Virus record (IMG/VR): IMGVR_UViG_3300021960_006484 | Coordinates: 1 to 25,310 of that record | Strand: one strand, 5' to 3' | DNA length: 25,310 nucleotides | From: a virus | Shown here: positions 5,732 to 14,029 of the stretch, piece after piece | Layout: each line of letters starts with the position of its first letter | Numbering within the stretch: position 1 is the first letter of the stretch | The notes under the pieces: generated by a model | What the model saw: only the letters and a program-made list of their open reading frames with translations | Database searches by the model: none | What the model was told of the DNA's origin: nothing | Position numbers and translations under genes: made by a program

Positions 5732-6688
5732 TTATGCTACCTCCGCTAATTCAAGTGCAAGGTTAGTTGCTTTCAGTTTTTTAGTTTGGTTGATGCCGAA
5801 CCAAGCAGATGCCATTCGTGCGTCAGCTGAACGACCTAACTTGTGGTCGGTAATATAAGTCACCGAGTTAAGAGCATTCCACCAAGTACCCATGGCCAAG
5901 TCAGCGCCAGGTTGTGTTTCCAGAACATCGTATGCAGCTTTCGCAGTAGTTGAAAGACCGGCATAGTCCTTGATATCATCTTTCTTTTTTGTGTTAGCGG
6001 CAGGAAAAACTTTACTGTAAAATGTGATTAAATCACTAACAGAAGTTTTCTTACTCGCCAAGAATCGGGCGGCATCACGATATTGTTCAAACTTTTCGTG
6101 AGCAAGTCCCATCTGATCCTTCACAATGTCAGCATTGAAAGCACGACGATGGTTCAACTTCACCTCGTTATTAGTGGCACCATTGAGTGACATAGTGAGG
6201 GTGTTGTTGCAAACAACCCGTGTAGGAGTCATACGAACGTTCAGTGACTTGCCATACTGATGCGGGTTAGAAAACAACATATAGTTATCAACACGGTCCT
6301 CACCGAGAACATCAAAAGACTCCTTGATCTTTGCAAGAACCCAGACAATCTGTCCATTCTTCAGAGAACCGGCGGTGTGCATTTCCATGTCACCAGCAAG
6401 GCAGAACTCATTAAAGAAGTCAAACGCTTCAGAATTCTGAACAGGTTCCCAATTATCACCAACGGAAGGAGAAAGGACACTGTTGTCAGACTCACGCAAC
6501 AAAGCGTTGCTTCCAGTCTCAATCATGTCACCATCAAAGGTGACGAATGAAGGGCGTTTCACAACGTTCCAATCAAGACCAGCTTGTTTCTGCATCTGAC
6601 GAGGTGTCAGATCTGCCGCTACTTTAACGCCAAGACCATGCCATGGAACTTGACCCGCATATGCCATTGTTTCTACTAGATGACTCAT
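5732..6688 (-). CDS. DUF932 (phage/plasmid-like, TIGR03299) protein, 318 aa
   Basis: The start MSHLVETMAYAGQVPWHGLG is the hallmark of this family (W-H-x-L-G near residue 17). It continues with LLRESDNSVLSPSVGDNWEPVQN and FLAGD-like segments, then VRMTPTRVVCNNTLTMSL and a C-terminal region with TWWNALNSVTYITDHKLG. Length and motif order match full-length members. DUF932 proteins are widespread on phages and plasmids, with unknown biochemical function. It is the first gene behind the class B promoter 6722-6750, with AAGG 9 nt before ATG. Confidence 0.85.
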   Translation of the reverse strand: MSHLVETMAYAGQVPWHGLGVKVAADLTPRQMQKQAGLDWNVVKRPSFVTFDGDMIETGSNALLRESDNSVLSPSVGDNWEPVQNSEAFDFFNEFCLAGDMEMHTAGSLKNGQIVWVLAKIKESFDVLGEDRVDNYMLFSNPHQYGKSLNVRMTPTRVVCNNTLTMSLNGATNNEVKLNHRRAFNADIVKDQMGLAHEKFEQYRDAARFLASKKTSVSDLITFYSKVFPAANTKKKDDIKDYAGLSTTAKAAYDVLETQPGADLAMGTWWNALNSVTYITDHKLGRSADARMASAWFGINQTKKLKATNLALELAEVA

Positions 6689-6721: not shown

Positions 6722-6750
6722 ATTATAGGGCATTTTGGATGTTTTGTCAA
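6722..6750 (-). promoter_or_regulatory. Sigma70-type early promoter, class B (consensus)
   Basis: Minus strand: -35 TTGACA (6750..6745), 17-bp spacer, -10 TATAAT (6727..6722), +1 near 6715: a full consensus promoter. An A-tract, TTCTAAAAAA, lies immediately upstream of -35 in the position of an UP element. It drives DUF932, the 129-aa gene and WYL_2. Confidence 0.9.
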
Positions 6751-6808
6751 CATATTTTTTAGAACATTTTGTTATATGCTTATAACTTTACTCTCTAAAG
6801 ATGGTTTG

Positions 6809-6910
6809 TCAATACATTTCCGCGATTTCTTGAGCGTACTTAGGGTTAGTTACTGGCACTGCGTTGGATTTGTGGATTGGTAGTTTATTTATTTGCTTTC
6901 TTCTTAGCAT
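6809..6910 (-). CDS. 33-codon ORF: duplicated C-terminal tail of the 106-aa protein
   Basis: ATG 6910..6908 follows the methyltransferase stop by one base, and the frame reads to TGA at 6811..6809. Its C-terminal part, HKSNAVPVTNPKYAQEIAEM plus Tyr, matches the end of the 106-residue protein (HKSNAVPVSNPKYAREISEM plus Tyr) with 3 differences in 21 residues. The DNA similarity continues past the stop codon into AGATGG... (6799-6880 against 8975-9056, roughly 80% by eye). It is either a gene remnant left by a duplication or a translated mini-protein. A partial copy is more likely than a functional gene. Confidence 0.6.
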   Translation of the reverse strand: MLRRKQINKLPIHKSNAVPVTNPKYAQEIAEMY

Positions 6911-6911
6911 A

Positions 6912-7439
6912 TTACTTAGGAATTGTCAATCGTTCCATAATAATTTGTTTAGGTAAAAAATTCCAGCAATAGTAACTACTACTAAACGTTATCTTATTAT
7001 TGTCTCGACCATCAGGCGAAATAAATTTCATTCGCTTGTCAAACATTAATAATTGCAAATCCTTTTCTTCAAACAACAGTTTTGGCGCGCTGTCATTTAG
7101 CCAAGTATTCGTCATAATTAAAGCAAACGGTTTCTCGAACGCAAGGGCCCGTTCAAAATAATTTCGTTTCTTGGTGAACGGTGGATTAGAAACGATTACA
7201 TCCCAGTGATCCGGCTCATACTCAAAAAAGTCTTGCCCTGAGAAGATATGAGAATGCACAACTTCATTCTGTACAGAAATTTGTTTTACAAACTCACTCT
7301 CCTCAGTATCGAATGGGCACCACACAGTGTCACCTTTTGGAATGTATTTAAGAATCGGTGTTACCCCGTAGTCTGGGGTGTAACATTCATCGTTACCCCC
7401 CGGCGAATACGTCAATTCTTTTGCAAAAGATTTATTCAT
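6912..7439 (-). CDS. Phage adenine-type DNA methyltransferase, 175 aa
   Basis: The order GNDECYTPDYGVTPILKYIP, TVWCPFDTEESEF, SHIFSGQDFFEYEP, DVIVSNPPFTKKRNYF, KPFALIMTNTWL is a short phage methyltransferase family. NPPF at 85-88 is catalytic motif IV, and CPFD around 41-44 stands where the AdoMet-binding motif I usually is. The predicted activity is N6-adenine methylation of DNA (inferred from NPPF). It is the third gene of the cassette, one base after the 331-residue ORF, so it may protect DNA from the nuclease-like product encoded upstream. Family members also occur alone in phages, so that pairing is inference. Confidence 0.75.
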   Translation of the reverse strand: MNKSFAKELTYSPGGNDECYTPDYGVTPILKYIPKGDTVWCPFDTEESEFVKQISVQNEVVHSHIFSGQDFFEYEPDHWDVIVSNPPFTKKRNYFERALAFEKPFALIMTNTWLNDSAPKLLFEEKDLQLLMFDKRMKFISPDGRDNNKITFSSSYYCWNFLPKQIIMERLTIPK

Positions 7440-7440
7440 A

Positions 7441-8436
7441 CTAGATGACCCTATCTTTATTATTTCCCATAAAGATTACAACAACGTCTTTAAAATTACA
7501 TTTTTTTGCCCACGGACCTTTCAATTTGTTTGAAATCTTATCTTGATTAGATTTCTTTGCCTGATTTTTAGTCTTGGCGAAGAAAATGAAAACTAGTTTA
7601 TCTTCATCTCTATCTGGATTTTCATTATTTAGTGATTGGTGGATTGCCGAACCACTTGCTTCTCCACTCCAAGACGCTACAGTCCTTGGCGACATAATTA
7701 TATAATCAGAATATAGTTTTTCATATTTTGATACACAGATCGTTTGCTCAATATCTGTTGGTACCCAAGCTGGGCGCTTTCGTCCTCCAGTCTCATGATT
7801 GCCCACATAGTTCTTTAACGTAGTTTGGTTTAAAAATGGGTACCGTTTTAAAAAGATTGCATTTTCTTCAGTTGAAAGCTGAGGCGATAAACCTTGTGCA
7901 ATCCTTTCGTCCATAAGTTCATGATACTCAGTCTTCAGATCTTCTCCATCGGTAGACTGTTTCTCTTCCCAAACCAAATTTAATGAGTTACCTAGAGCTC
8001 TTATGTTTGTCAACCTCGAATCTAGGTCTTTATCAAAGCACACAACATAACAGTCTGCGGTAGTAATTCCACACGTTACGTGGATTAATACGCCGTGATT
8101 TCTATCAAGAAGTGCATAACTGTCTGCTAGAAATGTGGTGTCTTCATATACAACTTCCTCCGGAAAATAAACTAGTACCGGAGCCTGTAAACCAGACGTA
8201 TCGCCAGTGTTGTTTACCTTTTGAACTTGTCTGTTAACAAATTTGCGATCGATAGACTTATCTCTAACCTGTAACGATTTATTTAAATCGATGTTGTACA
8301 CATCCTCTGTTGGTTTAGTCACAAACTGAAGCAGATCTACATTTGGCACTTTAGTCCACGTTCCGCCCCTTATTTGTTTTACGATAACCTGAATGGGATC
8401 TTCCACATTAGATTTTTTTATTAATTCTAGTGTCAT
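7441..8436 (-). CDS. ParB-like protein (putative), 331 aa
   Basis: The N-terminal ~140 residues have a ParB/Srx-like flow: QAPVLVYFPEE, then a 'D-x-N-H' stretch (YALLDRNHGVLIHVTCGI) where ParB has DGxHR, then RLTNIRALGNSLNL. This is followed by a helical segment (AIFLKRYPFLNQTTLKNYV) that could be a helix-turn-helix. The C-terminal ~120 residues (SDYIIMSPRTVASW, LVFIFFAKTKNQAKK, VVVIFMGNN) look like a separate alpha/beta domain. The assignment rests on pattern only. The start overlaps the nuclease-like gene stop as ATGA. It could give DNA specificity to the nuclease or act as one itself. Confidence 0.5.
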   Translation of the reverse strand: MTLELIKKSNVEDPIQVIVKQIRGGTWTKVPNVDLLQFVTKPTEDVYNIDLNKSLQVRDKSIDRKFVNRQVQKVNNTGDTSGLQAPVLVYFPEEVVYEDTTFLADSYALLDRNHGVLIHVTCGITTADCYVVCFDKDLDSRLTNIRALGNSLNLVWEEKQSTDGEDLKTEYHELMDERIAQGLSPQLSTEENAIFLKRYPFLNQTTLKNYVGNHETGGRKRPAWVPTDIEQTICVSKYEKLYSDYIIMSPRTVASWSGEASGSAIHQSLNNENPDRDEDKLVFIFFAKTKNQAKKSNQDKISNKLKGPWAKKCNFKDVVVIFMGNNKDRVI

Positions 8437-8924
8437 AATACTTTCACTCCATAATTATAAATTTCATTTTTTGTTAATGTTGCCCCAAGTCTAGGGTCTT
8501 TTTTATTCAACGTTGAACCGAAACGTTTTTTTAATTTTGGAAGTAAAATCTCCAAAACTTTTTCTCCAGAAAGTTTCCAGATTTCGGATATAGATCCAGC
8601 ATCAAATCTAGCAATATAATGATTCTTATATTTGCCGATTTTTTCTTTGCGAAGATAGGTTTCTTGTTCTTCCCAAGATGGAAGAACGCTAATACCGTTG
8701 TACGCACCATTAATGTTTTTATTGATGGTGGATTTATATTCACACCCCCCATCATCATCGATGCCATCAGCACCAGAATATGTATCGGCTTTCTTATGAC
8801 CCAAAGCATTGGCGATCATTATCTCACGAGACACTGCATAGGAGAATGGATCTCCCCAGCCCTCCTCAATACACAAGTCATACATTTCTTTAAATAAATT
8901 TGCAAATTTATTTTCTGATTTCAT
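8433..8924 (-). CDS. PD-(D/E)XK restriction-endonuclease-like protein, 163 aa
   Basis: The helix SREIMIANALGHKKADTYSG leads into GADGIDDDGGCEYKST. D53 (or D56-D58) followed by E62-x-K64 is the catalytic PD-(D/E)XK arrangement, and the preceding helix Glu (E34) fits type II restriction enzymes. The rest (NKNINGAYNGISVLPSW, HYIARFDAGSISEIWKL, AL-type C-terminus) is compatible with a small endonuclease. Promoter 8960-8988 serves it, with only a weak AAG ribosome site before the ATG at 8924. As first gene of a nuclease-ParB-like-methyltransferase cassette it may cut competitor or host DNA; this is inference. Confidence 0.6.
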   Translation of the reverse strand: MKSENKFANLFKEMYDLCIEEGWGDPFSYAVSREIMIANALGHKKADTYSGADGIDDDGGCEYKSTINKNINGAYNGISVLPSWEEQETYLRKEKIGKYKNHYIARFDAGSISEIWKLSGEKVLEILLPKLKKRFGSTLNKKDPRLGATLTKNEIYNYGVKVL

Positions 8925-8946
8925 AATATATTTCTTAAGTTTTTTT

Positions 8947-8962
8947 GATAACAGGTGTTATC
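8947..8962. promoter_or_regulatory. Putative operator palindrome at the cassette promoter
   Basis: GATAACAGGTGTTATC, perfect 7-bp arms around a 2-bp centre, overlapping -10 and centred near -2 relative to the predicted +1 (8953). It is the cassette's version of the palindrome seen at three other early promoters. Confidence 0.6.
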
Positions 8963-8988
8963 TTAACACATAAAAGATGGTTTGTCAA
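8960..8988 (-). promoter_or_regulatory. Sigma70-type promoter of the nuclease/methyltransferase cassette, class A
   Basis: Minus strand: -35 TTGACA (8988..8983) overlapping the stop codon of the 106-aa gene, 17-bp spacer, -10 TAAGAT (8965..8960), +1 near 8953. The -35 half is also present in the duplicated copy at 6807-6812, but there no -10 follows. Confidence 0.75.
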
Positions 8989-9305
8989 TACATTTCCGAA
9001 ATTTCACGGGCGTATTTTGGATTGCTTACTGGGACTGCGTTGGATTTGTGGAGTTGTCCCAGACCGATGACGAAGTCTCCGGTGTACTGTTTTGACGCTC
9101 TTCTATCGCCTCCTGCCTTTGCTGGAGTAAGAGGTGACGATTTGTACTGTTTAATCTCTGCCGCACGTTCACTTGCATACGTTGTTTTTGGTTGGTATTC
9201 CTGAAACTTAGGCGGGACATATTTGACACAGACTTCTCCTTTCGGTTTACGAGGTTTACGTTTACGGCCATTAAAATCATACTTATAAGATCCGAAAACT
9301 CTCAT
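8985..9305 (-). CDS. Conserved phage protein with KSNAVPV tail, 106 aa
   Basis: A very basic N-terminus (NGRKRKPRKPKGE) is followed by a YTGDFVIGLGQLHKSNAVPV segment and an EISEMY end. This 'YTGDxxxGxxxxHKSNAVPV' module is familiar from short proteins of T4-like marine phages; the function is unknown. ATG 9305..9303 overlaps the upstream stop by one base (TAATG). The 3' end carries the -35 of the cassette promoter, and its last ~22 codons are duplicated at 6809-6880. The basic region could bind nucleic acid (inference). Confidence 0.75.
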   Translation of the reverse strand: MRVFGSYKYDFNGRKRKPRKPKGEVCVKYVPPKFQEYQPKTTYASERAAEIKQYKSSPLTPAKAGGDRRASKQYTGDFVIGLGQLHKSNAVPVSNPKYAREISEMY

Positions 9306-13276: not shown

Positions 13277-14029
13277 TTATATCAAAAAGTTATTAAGAGT
13301 GGAGACATTATCAACACGTTCAAGAGCAATCTTCACGTAGTCTGGATTGATCTCGGACCCAATCCACTTACGGCCCATCTCTTCACAGACCACCGCAGTA
13401 GTACCGACTCCCATAAAGGGATCGTATACAACATCACCTTCGGTACTAAAGTTATCCAGAATAGCACGTACCAACTTGGTAGGCATCACTGCGTTGTGAC
13501 CCTCAACGTGTTTCTCACGAGGGATCTTCCACACGTCTGAAAGAGTACCACGATTGAAGTAAACATCTTTCCGAAACATACGAGAGATGGGGTAGTCTTT
13601 TTCGAAGACCAATATAAACTCAAACTGACGATTGAGGACACCTTCCTGAACTGCTGGTTCTCCGTGACCCTTGTCCCAGATGATCACATCCTTGAGTGAT
13701 TCCGCAAAGTTACCGATCATCTGGAAGAGTGCTTGCTTACTACCCGCAACTACTGCGATGTTGTAAAACACCCTGTTAGAGACACGTAGGCACTCGGTGA
13801 GGACCTTTGAGTGAAACTCTAAGTATTCCTCTGTAGGCAAATCATCTGTGAACTCAGTGTACTTTGCTACGTTTTTAGGAGTATCATTTCCACGTGAAAT
13901 GAGTTTACCTTTGGATACCCTTCTACGTAGGTTATATGGCGGTGAAGTGATGACCAGATCAATACTATTGTCTTCTAATCTTACTAGGGTGTCCAAACAA
14001 CTTTCGTTGTGAACCAAATTGTTTGGCAT
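13277..14029 (-). CDS. Orphan DNA methyltransferase (N4-cytosine/N6-adenine type), 250 aa
   Basis: Motif IV TSPPYN lies at 28-33 (SIDLVITSPPYNL) and motif I DPFMGVGTTAVV near 203-214, so the order is IV before I, as in the beta class of AdoMet-dependent amino-methyltransferases. MPTKLVRAILDNFS precedes motif I and GSEINPDYVKIALERV follows it, as in family members. TSPPY favours N4-cytosine but does not exclude N6-adenine. No restriction enzyme is adjacent, so it probably protects or marks phage DNA. The start overlaps the cupin stop (TAATG). Last gene of the long replication-cluster operon. Confidence 0.88.
   Translation of the reverse strand: MPNNLVHNESCLDTLVRLEDNSIDLVITSPPYNLRRRVSKGKLISRGNDTPKNVAKYTEFTDDLPTEEYLEFHSKVLTECLRVSNRVFYNIAVVAGSKQALFQMIGNFAESLKDVIIWDKGHGEPAVQEGVLNRQFEFILVFEKDYPISRMFRKDVYFNRGTLSDVWKIPREKHVEGHNAVMPTKLVRAILDNFSTEGDVVYDPFMGVGTTAVVCEEMGRKWIGSEINPDYVKIALERVDNVSTLNNFLI

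Follow-up and report, generated by a model that had tools for sequence, protein, structure and literature searches.

In the 25,310-nt window analysed here (the whole 25.3-kb IMG/VR virus record IMGVR_UViG_3300021960_006484, probably a fragment), three minus-strand open reading frames (ORFs) form a cassette encoding, in reading order, a putative nuclease, a ParB-like protein, and a DNA methyltransferase (Table 1). The DNA polymerase of the window is nearest to that of Phage C48C1 (Kyanoviridae, 56%) and next to those of marine T4-like cyanophages. The three genes are as tightly coupled as an initial annotation of the bare sequence had stated, since the nuclease stop overlaps the ParB-like start in an ATGA and a single base separates the ParB-like stop from the methyltransferase start; codon changes in all three point to purifying selection. 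The cassette lies in a slot bordered upstream by a 106-aa gene and downstream by a DUF932 gene, and no dnd-type gene was recognised beside it within the window, itself probably part of a larger genome.

Table 1. Features of the cassette and its surroundings (window positions unless a locus is named)
Feature	Position	Strand	Basis
163-aa putative PvuII-like restriction endonuclease	8433..8924	-	predicted fold (model md55316606dfe) and invariant D53, E62, K64
331-aa protein of predicted ParB/Srx fold, phrog_5778	7441..8436	-	predicted model m4953014264b5, structural matches
175-aa DNA methyltransferase, SNPPF motif, phrog_799	6912..7439	-	family match
106-aa gene of unknown function, upstream slot border	8985..9305	-	phrog_27048 E 4e-9; 20 IMG/VR relatives
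DUF932 gene, downstream slot border	5732..6688	-	PF06067 E 5.6e-41
Repeat copy 1 (t1): 3' end of 106-aa gene, stop codon over -35 TTGACA, promoter, palindrome	8916..9057	-	
Repeat copy 2 (t2): orphan 106-aa gene tail of another lineage	6740..6881	-	
Second promoter-like site, within t2	6812-6785	-	
TTGACA-17-TAAGAT sigma-70-type promoter, cassette front	8960..8988	-	10/12 consensus matches
TTGACA-17-TATAAT promoter of DUF932, perfect consensus	6722..6750	-	12/12
Perfect palindrome GATAACACCTGTTATC over -10 region, candidate operator	8947..8962	-	
S-RIM2 alternative ParB-like genes, very different	L086:3452-4507 vs L087:3321-4247		

The AlphaFold2 model of the 163-aa protein (predicted local distance difference test, pLDDT, 88.8) was matched to PvuII by Foldseek (E 1.8e-7), and its comparison with PvuII (2pvi) gave Z 14.6 at a root-mean-square deviation of 3.0 across 150 of the 163 residues. 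The second-ranked structural family consists of the PvuII-like domains of NhoI and Eco15I, which were solved with methylated DNA (Z 10.4 and 9.9); further PD-(D/E)XK enzymes reached Z 7 or lower. Residues D53, E62, and K64, invariant among 11 relatives, fit a PD-(D/E)XK site. The sole name obtained from sequence libraries was phrog_35715 (unknown function), PDB sequence searches gave no credible match, and PADLOC and NCBIfam offered nothing useful for either the nuclease or the ParB-like protein. The P-TIM68 homologue of the nuclease matches PF09225 Endonuc-PvuII at E 0.002, which is below the curated cut-off, and a Pfam search using the nuclease alignment did not reproduce this match. As modelled, the protein is a PvuII fold with a D-E-K active site and a putative restriction endonuclease, in keeping with the PD-(D/E)XK-like assignment made initially. 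The rank of the NhoI and Eco15I domains speaks for a modification-dependent nuclease that attacks methylated rival or host DNA, but PvuII proper is clearly the better match and a whole-length one, and, with a methyltransferase in its operon, such an enzyme would put the phage genome itself at risk unless it recognised other marks, so that we regard this alternative as very improbable.

The 331-aa protein belongs to phrog_5778, a family of unknown function, and has no Pfam match and hence no DUF262. Its model (pLDDT 81) is matched best by KorB (Z 8.6 over 139 aa), then by PNOB8 ParB-N (Z 7.8 over 156 aa), followed by Noc, ParB, ParB-CDP, and sulfiredoxin (Srx) structures; the best 24 structural rows are all ParB, Noc, KorB, sulfiredoxin, or related ParB-like folds. 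Foldseek by itself was weak (best E 0.018, to ParB), as were the matches of the C-terminal domain (224-331), and neither PDB sequence searches (no credible match) nor a scan of genome contigs with the family (no match) extended the assignment. A match to S5 ribosomal protein (6e-6) was judged spurious because the predicted fold is that of ParB. The model is thus indicative of a ParB/sulfiredoxin fold, which bears out the ParB-like label of the initial annotation. The canonical ParB motif QPR...GERR is represented in phrog_5778 by QVR...GNHT (RNH in the window version); the GERR-type phosphate motif is not present in the family, and with GNH or RNH in its place NTP (nucleoside triphosphate) binding may differ.

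The 175-aa protein matches the phrog_799 DNA methyltransferase family (E 4e-34), as its NPPF motif had led the initial annotation to expect, with weak matches to PF13651 EcoRI_methylase and PF07669 Eco57I. Free-standing relatives of ~170-207 aa occur in Thermus, Fusobacterium, Flavobacterium, Enterocloster, and Campylobacter phages, so the protein does not look like a truncated fragment and would be a full-length family member; when ParB fused to this methyltransferase type was sought in other phages, stand-alone enzymes only were found. The nuclease and the methyltransferase are most simply read as a restriction-modification (R-M) pair. A rather unlikely alternative is that the two are not cognate, the nuclease breaking host DNA for nucleotides and the methyltransferase shielding the phage from host restriction. 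P-SSM2, which has both genes 6.6 kb apart, and the many phages with methyltransferase relatives but no adjacent annotated nuclease partner would suit such a division of labour; however, the same nuclease and methyltransferase types are adjacent in P-TIM68 and in the IMG/VR loci L008-L021 (L numbers denote our loci) and lie in one trio in L083, and neighbouring nuclease and methyltransferase genes recur for other types.

We then searched with the ParB-like family alignment and obtained 25 IMG/VR loci, in which genes were typed one by one with hidden Markov models into nuclease types N1 (PvuII-like) to N5 and methyltransferase types, M1 being that of the window. The gene rows were N1, ParB-like, M1 (window, L083); N1, ParB-like, N6_N4-type methyltransferase (L062); N2, ParB-like, D12 methyltransferase (S-RIM2, L069, L078, L084); N5, ParB-like, D12 (L054, L082); D12, N3, ParB-like (S-RIM12, ACG-2014b and relatives); N3, Dam, ParB-like (L065, L070, L071); N4, Dam, ParB-like (L048, L064); and ParB-like, N4, D12 (L066). 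The three genes together, proposed as a search target by the initial annotation, stand in the same order in L083 at 36/31/73% identity to the window trio, and L062 combines the nuclease and ParB-like kinds of the window with another methyltransferase type. N3 is PDDEXK_11 by Pfam, with S-RIM12, L065, and L070 scoring above cut-off, and N4 is MutH/MvaI-BcnI-like with weak scores. When ParB-like proteins were clustered at 80% identity, both a methyltransferase and a nuclease candidate lay no more than about 2.6 kb away in 10 of the 13 clusters, with nuclease candidates of five unrelated types and methyltransferases of four types across the 10; the chance of such a count is 2e-8 if one in ten clusters is assumed to have both by chance. 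One exception, L077, has a Dam gene 1.7 kb from the ParB-like gene. By sequence typing the trio is a recurrent arrangement in marine phages and not a one-off, and the R-M-like reading with a non-standard ParB-like partner is strengthened by these many relatives. No description of the trio was found in literature searches of open papers; it is a phage-borne R-M variant with a ParB-fold partner that is new to the open literature searched.

Comparisons of close relatives indicated that the parts of these modules are exchanged. L064 and L065 have ParB-like proteins 93% and Dam proteins 89% identical with unrelated nucleases, L042 and L054 have ParB-like proteins 90% and D12 proteins 75% identical with unrelated nucleases, and in the ParB-like tree the nuclease types are intermixed inside clades. 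Because the ParB-like gene persists while the nuclease is swapped, the ParB-fold partner is unlikely to set sequence specificity. The ParB-like gene itself is also replaced. Among 65 records with the S-RIM2 nuclease type, 54 match (at least 95%) a 351-aa phrog_2558 protein with a DGQHTG motif, probably a second ParB-like type, which sits between the same S-RIM2 nuclease and methyltransferase, and four S-RIM2 isolates have the phrog_5778 type at that place; in the S-RIM2 pair compared, the ParB-like gene is replaced between flanks 99.0% and 99.6% identical (Table 1). The phrog_5778 form (type A) is represented in S-RIM2 by KX349262 and the alternative form (type B) by NC_020859. The assignment of ParB-like type B to the ParB fold is based on phrog_1033 (E 0.0014) and DUF6551 (E 2.7e-4), and a profile comparison of type A with type B was not convincing. 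ACG-2014b has the ParB-like unit and ACG-2014g is without it, between flanks 97% and 96% identical, and the breakpoints fall inside a repeated promoter element. Near-identical relatives thus exchange or lose components, in one pair inside promoter repeats, and the pattern suggests that phages trade self-versus-foreign DNA weapons, often with a ParB-type partner. In the ACG-2014b isolate Syn7803C76, the ParB-like gene is split in two reading frames (L043:3983-4989); it is intact in L049.

In the window, the cassette lies between two copies of a gene tail. The initial annotation had noted two similar sequences of ~80 bp, and t1 and t2 are indeed 86% identical over 80 nt (BLAST E about 1e-21) and 82% over 60 coding nt, have an exact TTGACAAACCATC in common, and stay in register for 142 nt at 74% (6740-6881 vs 8916-9057), a likeness that on alignment is far beyond chance. 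The tail t1 is nearest to those of L030/L031/L033 (90-92%) and t2 to that of L024/L025 (93%). Since the two copies, 82% alike, are nearest to different lineages, the window tails appear to combine two lineages in a chimaera, such as gene-end recombination would produce, and not to be a recent tandem duplication. They fit a recombination scar, with the direction and order of the events not readable from the tail data. One tail lineage on the gene and a second-lineage tail displaced beyond the cassette is also what a homing or other selfish insertion replacing its target gene tail might leave as a relic. This origin is very doubtful, as Pfam and PHROG family matching of the cassette genes revealed neither a homing-type domain nor an integrase, the slot takes many unrelated cargos, and comparable cassettes in other phages are flanked by promoter or terminator repeats or by none, not by gene tails.

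Removal of the segment between the copies was supposed to bring the 106-aa gene directly next to DUF932, and such an empty site was not found in 20 loci. Distinct loci with both genes in this order carry 1.2-3.6 kb of other genes between them, from which the slot would be a cargo hotspot and not the site of a simple insert. The cargo in relatives varies and often comprises DNA-modification or nuclease genes, such as an HNH gene accompanied by a thermonuclease-like one; all of these slots are filled, and none with the cassette. Of the proposed insertion or loss at the repeats, what stands is the two-lineage tails and the present/absent pair at a related locus, and what does not is the empty site. 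Among the slot cargos, L022:839-2664 and L037:6325-8219 hold a GMP reductase-like gene and, behind it, a DNA-modification gene of the Mom family (PF25680, E 1e-55). L040:794-3231 combines a carbamoyltransferase gene with one that encodes a methyltransferase domain, and these two may be a further DNA-modification pair. The window has a second methyltransferase, of N6_N4 type, at 13277-14029; its relatives directly precede the 106-aa gene in L033 (4437-5180) and L040 (2-451), so that its position varies.

A promoter of its own had also been attributed to the cassette. A promoter-like site does precede the nuclease gene and shares bases with the stop codon that ends the 106-aa gene, and the palindrome GATAACACCTGTTATC at its -10 region occurs once in the window against 0.18 times in shuffles. 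The tail, promoter, and palindrome all recur behind the 106-aa gene of L030; L031 and L034 have the palindrome at this place as well, with a similar promoter. Since none of these three loci was found to contain a nuclease, ParB-like, or methyltransferase gene of the cassette, the cassette probably uses a resident promoter native to the slot. The ParB-like protein might instead regulate transcription of the module or of the phage region, in the manner of KorB or DndB, and play no direct role in cutting or methylating DNA. The top structural match, KorB, is a transcriptional repressor, ATP-dependent repression of the dnd operon has been described for DndB (PMC12704722), and the palindrome extends into the -10 of the cassette promoter. 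However, the palindrome is also present in L030, L031, and L034, where cassette genes were not found, and is thus not specific to the ParB-like protein, and phage ParB-methyltransferase fusions suggest that such proteins act directly in DNA modification (PMC12704722); a purely regulatory role is conceivable, and on balance unlikely. Perfect or near-perfect copies of the palindrome lie at promoters at 8947-8962 in the window, L030:6329, L031:1551 and 6347, and L034:2273 and 6341; in L031 and L034 it is found upstream of DUF932 too and is a candidate phage-wide operator.

In our reading, the cassette is probably a phage-borne type II R-M module in which the ParB-fold protein is an accessory, and it would have arrived as cargo at a recombination hotspot. 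Several observations weigh against it. The nuclease is without a significant direct sequence match to PvuII, and nuclease types N2 and N5 are based on PD-(D/E)XK-like motifs recognised by eye. Five loci in two clusters (L067/L068; L079-L081) have lone ParB-like genes among structural genes. Conversely, neither phrog_5778 nor phrog_2558 is matched anywhere in the genomes of P-TIM68, S-RIM8, S-RIM50, and ACG-2014g, all of which encode a nuclease and a methyltransferase, and L008-L021 show no ParB-like gene beside the nuclease-methyltransferase pair; with the pair kept in several phages without a ParB-like match, the ParB-like protein looks like a frequent but dispensable partner.

In the proposed mechanism, the methyltransferase would mark phage DNA and the nuclease would cut unmarked host or rival phage DNA. 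As virion DNA would arrive already methylated, the nuclease would be free to attack the DNA of host or rival immediately, and an operon with the nuclease first would not be suicidal. The ParB-fold protein would probably bind DNA as a switch gated by nucleotide, with which the activity of the pair is tuned or its target chosen. Both targets have precedents in giant viruses, whose R-M pairs act on host DNA and against rivals according to the passages cited (PMC7253447), and ParB-fold NTPases serve the modification or restriction systems DndB, DpdB, GmrS, and phage ParB-methyltransferase fusions (PMC12704722, PMC12839542, PMC4619093). A broader and more tentative proposal, which we hold as possible but not probable, is that a ParB-fold NTP switch licenses or targets interchangeable nuclease-methyltransferase pairs whose parts are traded via promoter repeats, which would give self/host/rival discrimination to marine T4-like phages without hypermodified DNA and constitute an undescribed class of three-part weapon.

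The PvuII system has a small helix-turn-helix (HTH) controller protein, which many type II systems are without. The cassette would share with it the nuclease fold, size, and D-E-K catalytic pattern, as modelled, but differs in lacking a direct sequence match, in being phage-borne, and in having a ParB-fold protein between nuclease and methyltransferase; no HTH controller gene was found among its three genes, which gave no Pfam HTH match. The R-M systems of chloroviruses and marseilleviruses are likewise virus-borne pairs of nuclease and methyltransferase serving host DNA breakdown or rival exclusion, but belong to eukaryotic viruses, and no ParB-fold partner is mentioned in the passages cited (PMC7253447). 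Phage ParB-CTPase-methyltransferase fusions, DndB, and DpdB also associate a ParB-fold NTPase with DNA modification (PMC12704722, PMC12839542); in the cassette, by contrast, the ParB-like gene is separate and shares its operon with a PD-(D/E)XK nuclease, and its family has GNH/RNH where the others have GERR or DGQHR. GmrSD (DUF262) type IV systems couple a ParB/Srx-fold NTPase to a nuclease (PMC4619093), whereas the cassette has no DUF262 match, a predicted PvuII fold instead of an HNH nuclease, and a methyltransferase. The exchange of genes between repeated promoter elements resembles the promoter-early stem-loop (PeSL) shuffling of T4-like phages, as described in the passages cited (PMC4503421), and is seen at L049/L090, where L049 has stem-loop and promoter repeats by eye; the window repeat, however, is a gene tail with a promoter, and no terminator-like site or stem-loop was found on the window minus strand.

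If this interpretation is true, abundant ocean phages encode R-M modules whose parts change from phage to phage around a recurrent ParB-fold partner, and there is a testable answer to how T4-like cyanophages separate their own from host and rival DNA. To our knowledge, T4-like cyanophages do not share the cytosine hypermodification of T4. The cultured S-RIM2 alleles, with near-identical flanks and a different ParB-like gene, make the role of this gene directly testable.

Further variants were noticed in the collected loci. The ParB-like proteins at L079:3545-4900, L080:1558-2940, and L081:1493-2887 have a ~140-aa additional N-terminal domain, and their genes stand directly behind an apparent major capsid gene with no nuclease or methyltransferase nearby. 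Behind the trio methyltransferase of L069 lies a 190-aa gene (L069:5727-6299) with no Pfam match, possibly another nuclease, and L066:1202-2296, directly upstream of the phrog_5778 gene, encodes a 364-aa protein that contains the motif DGRTRIRAA and may be another ParB-like type.

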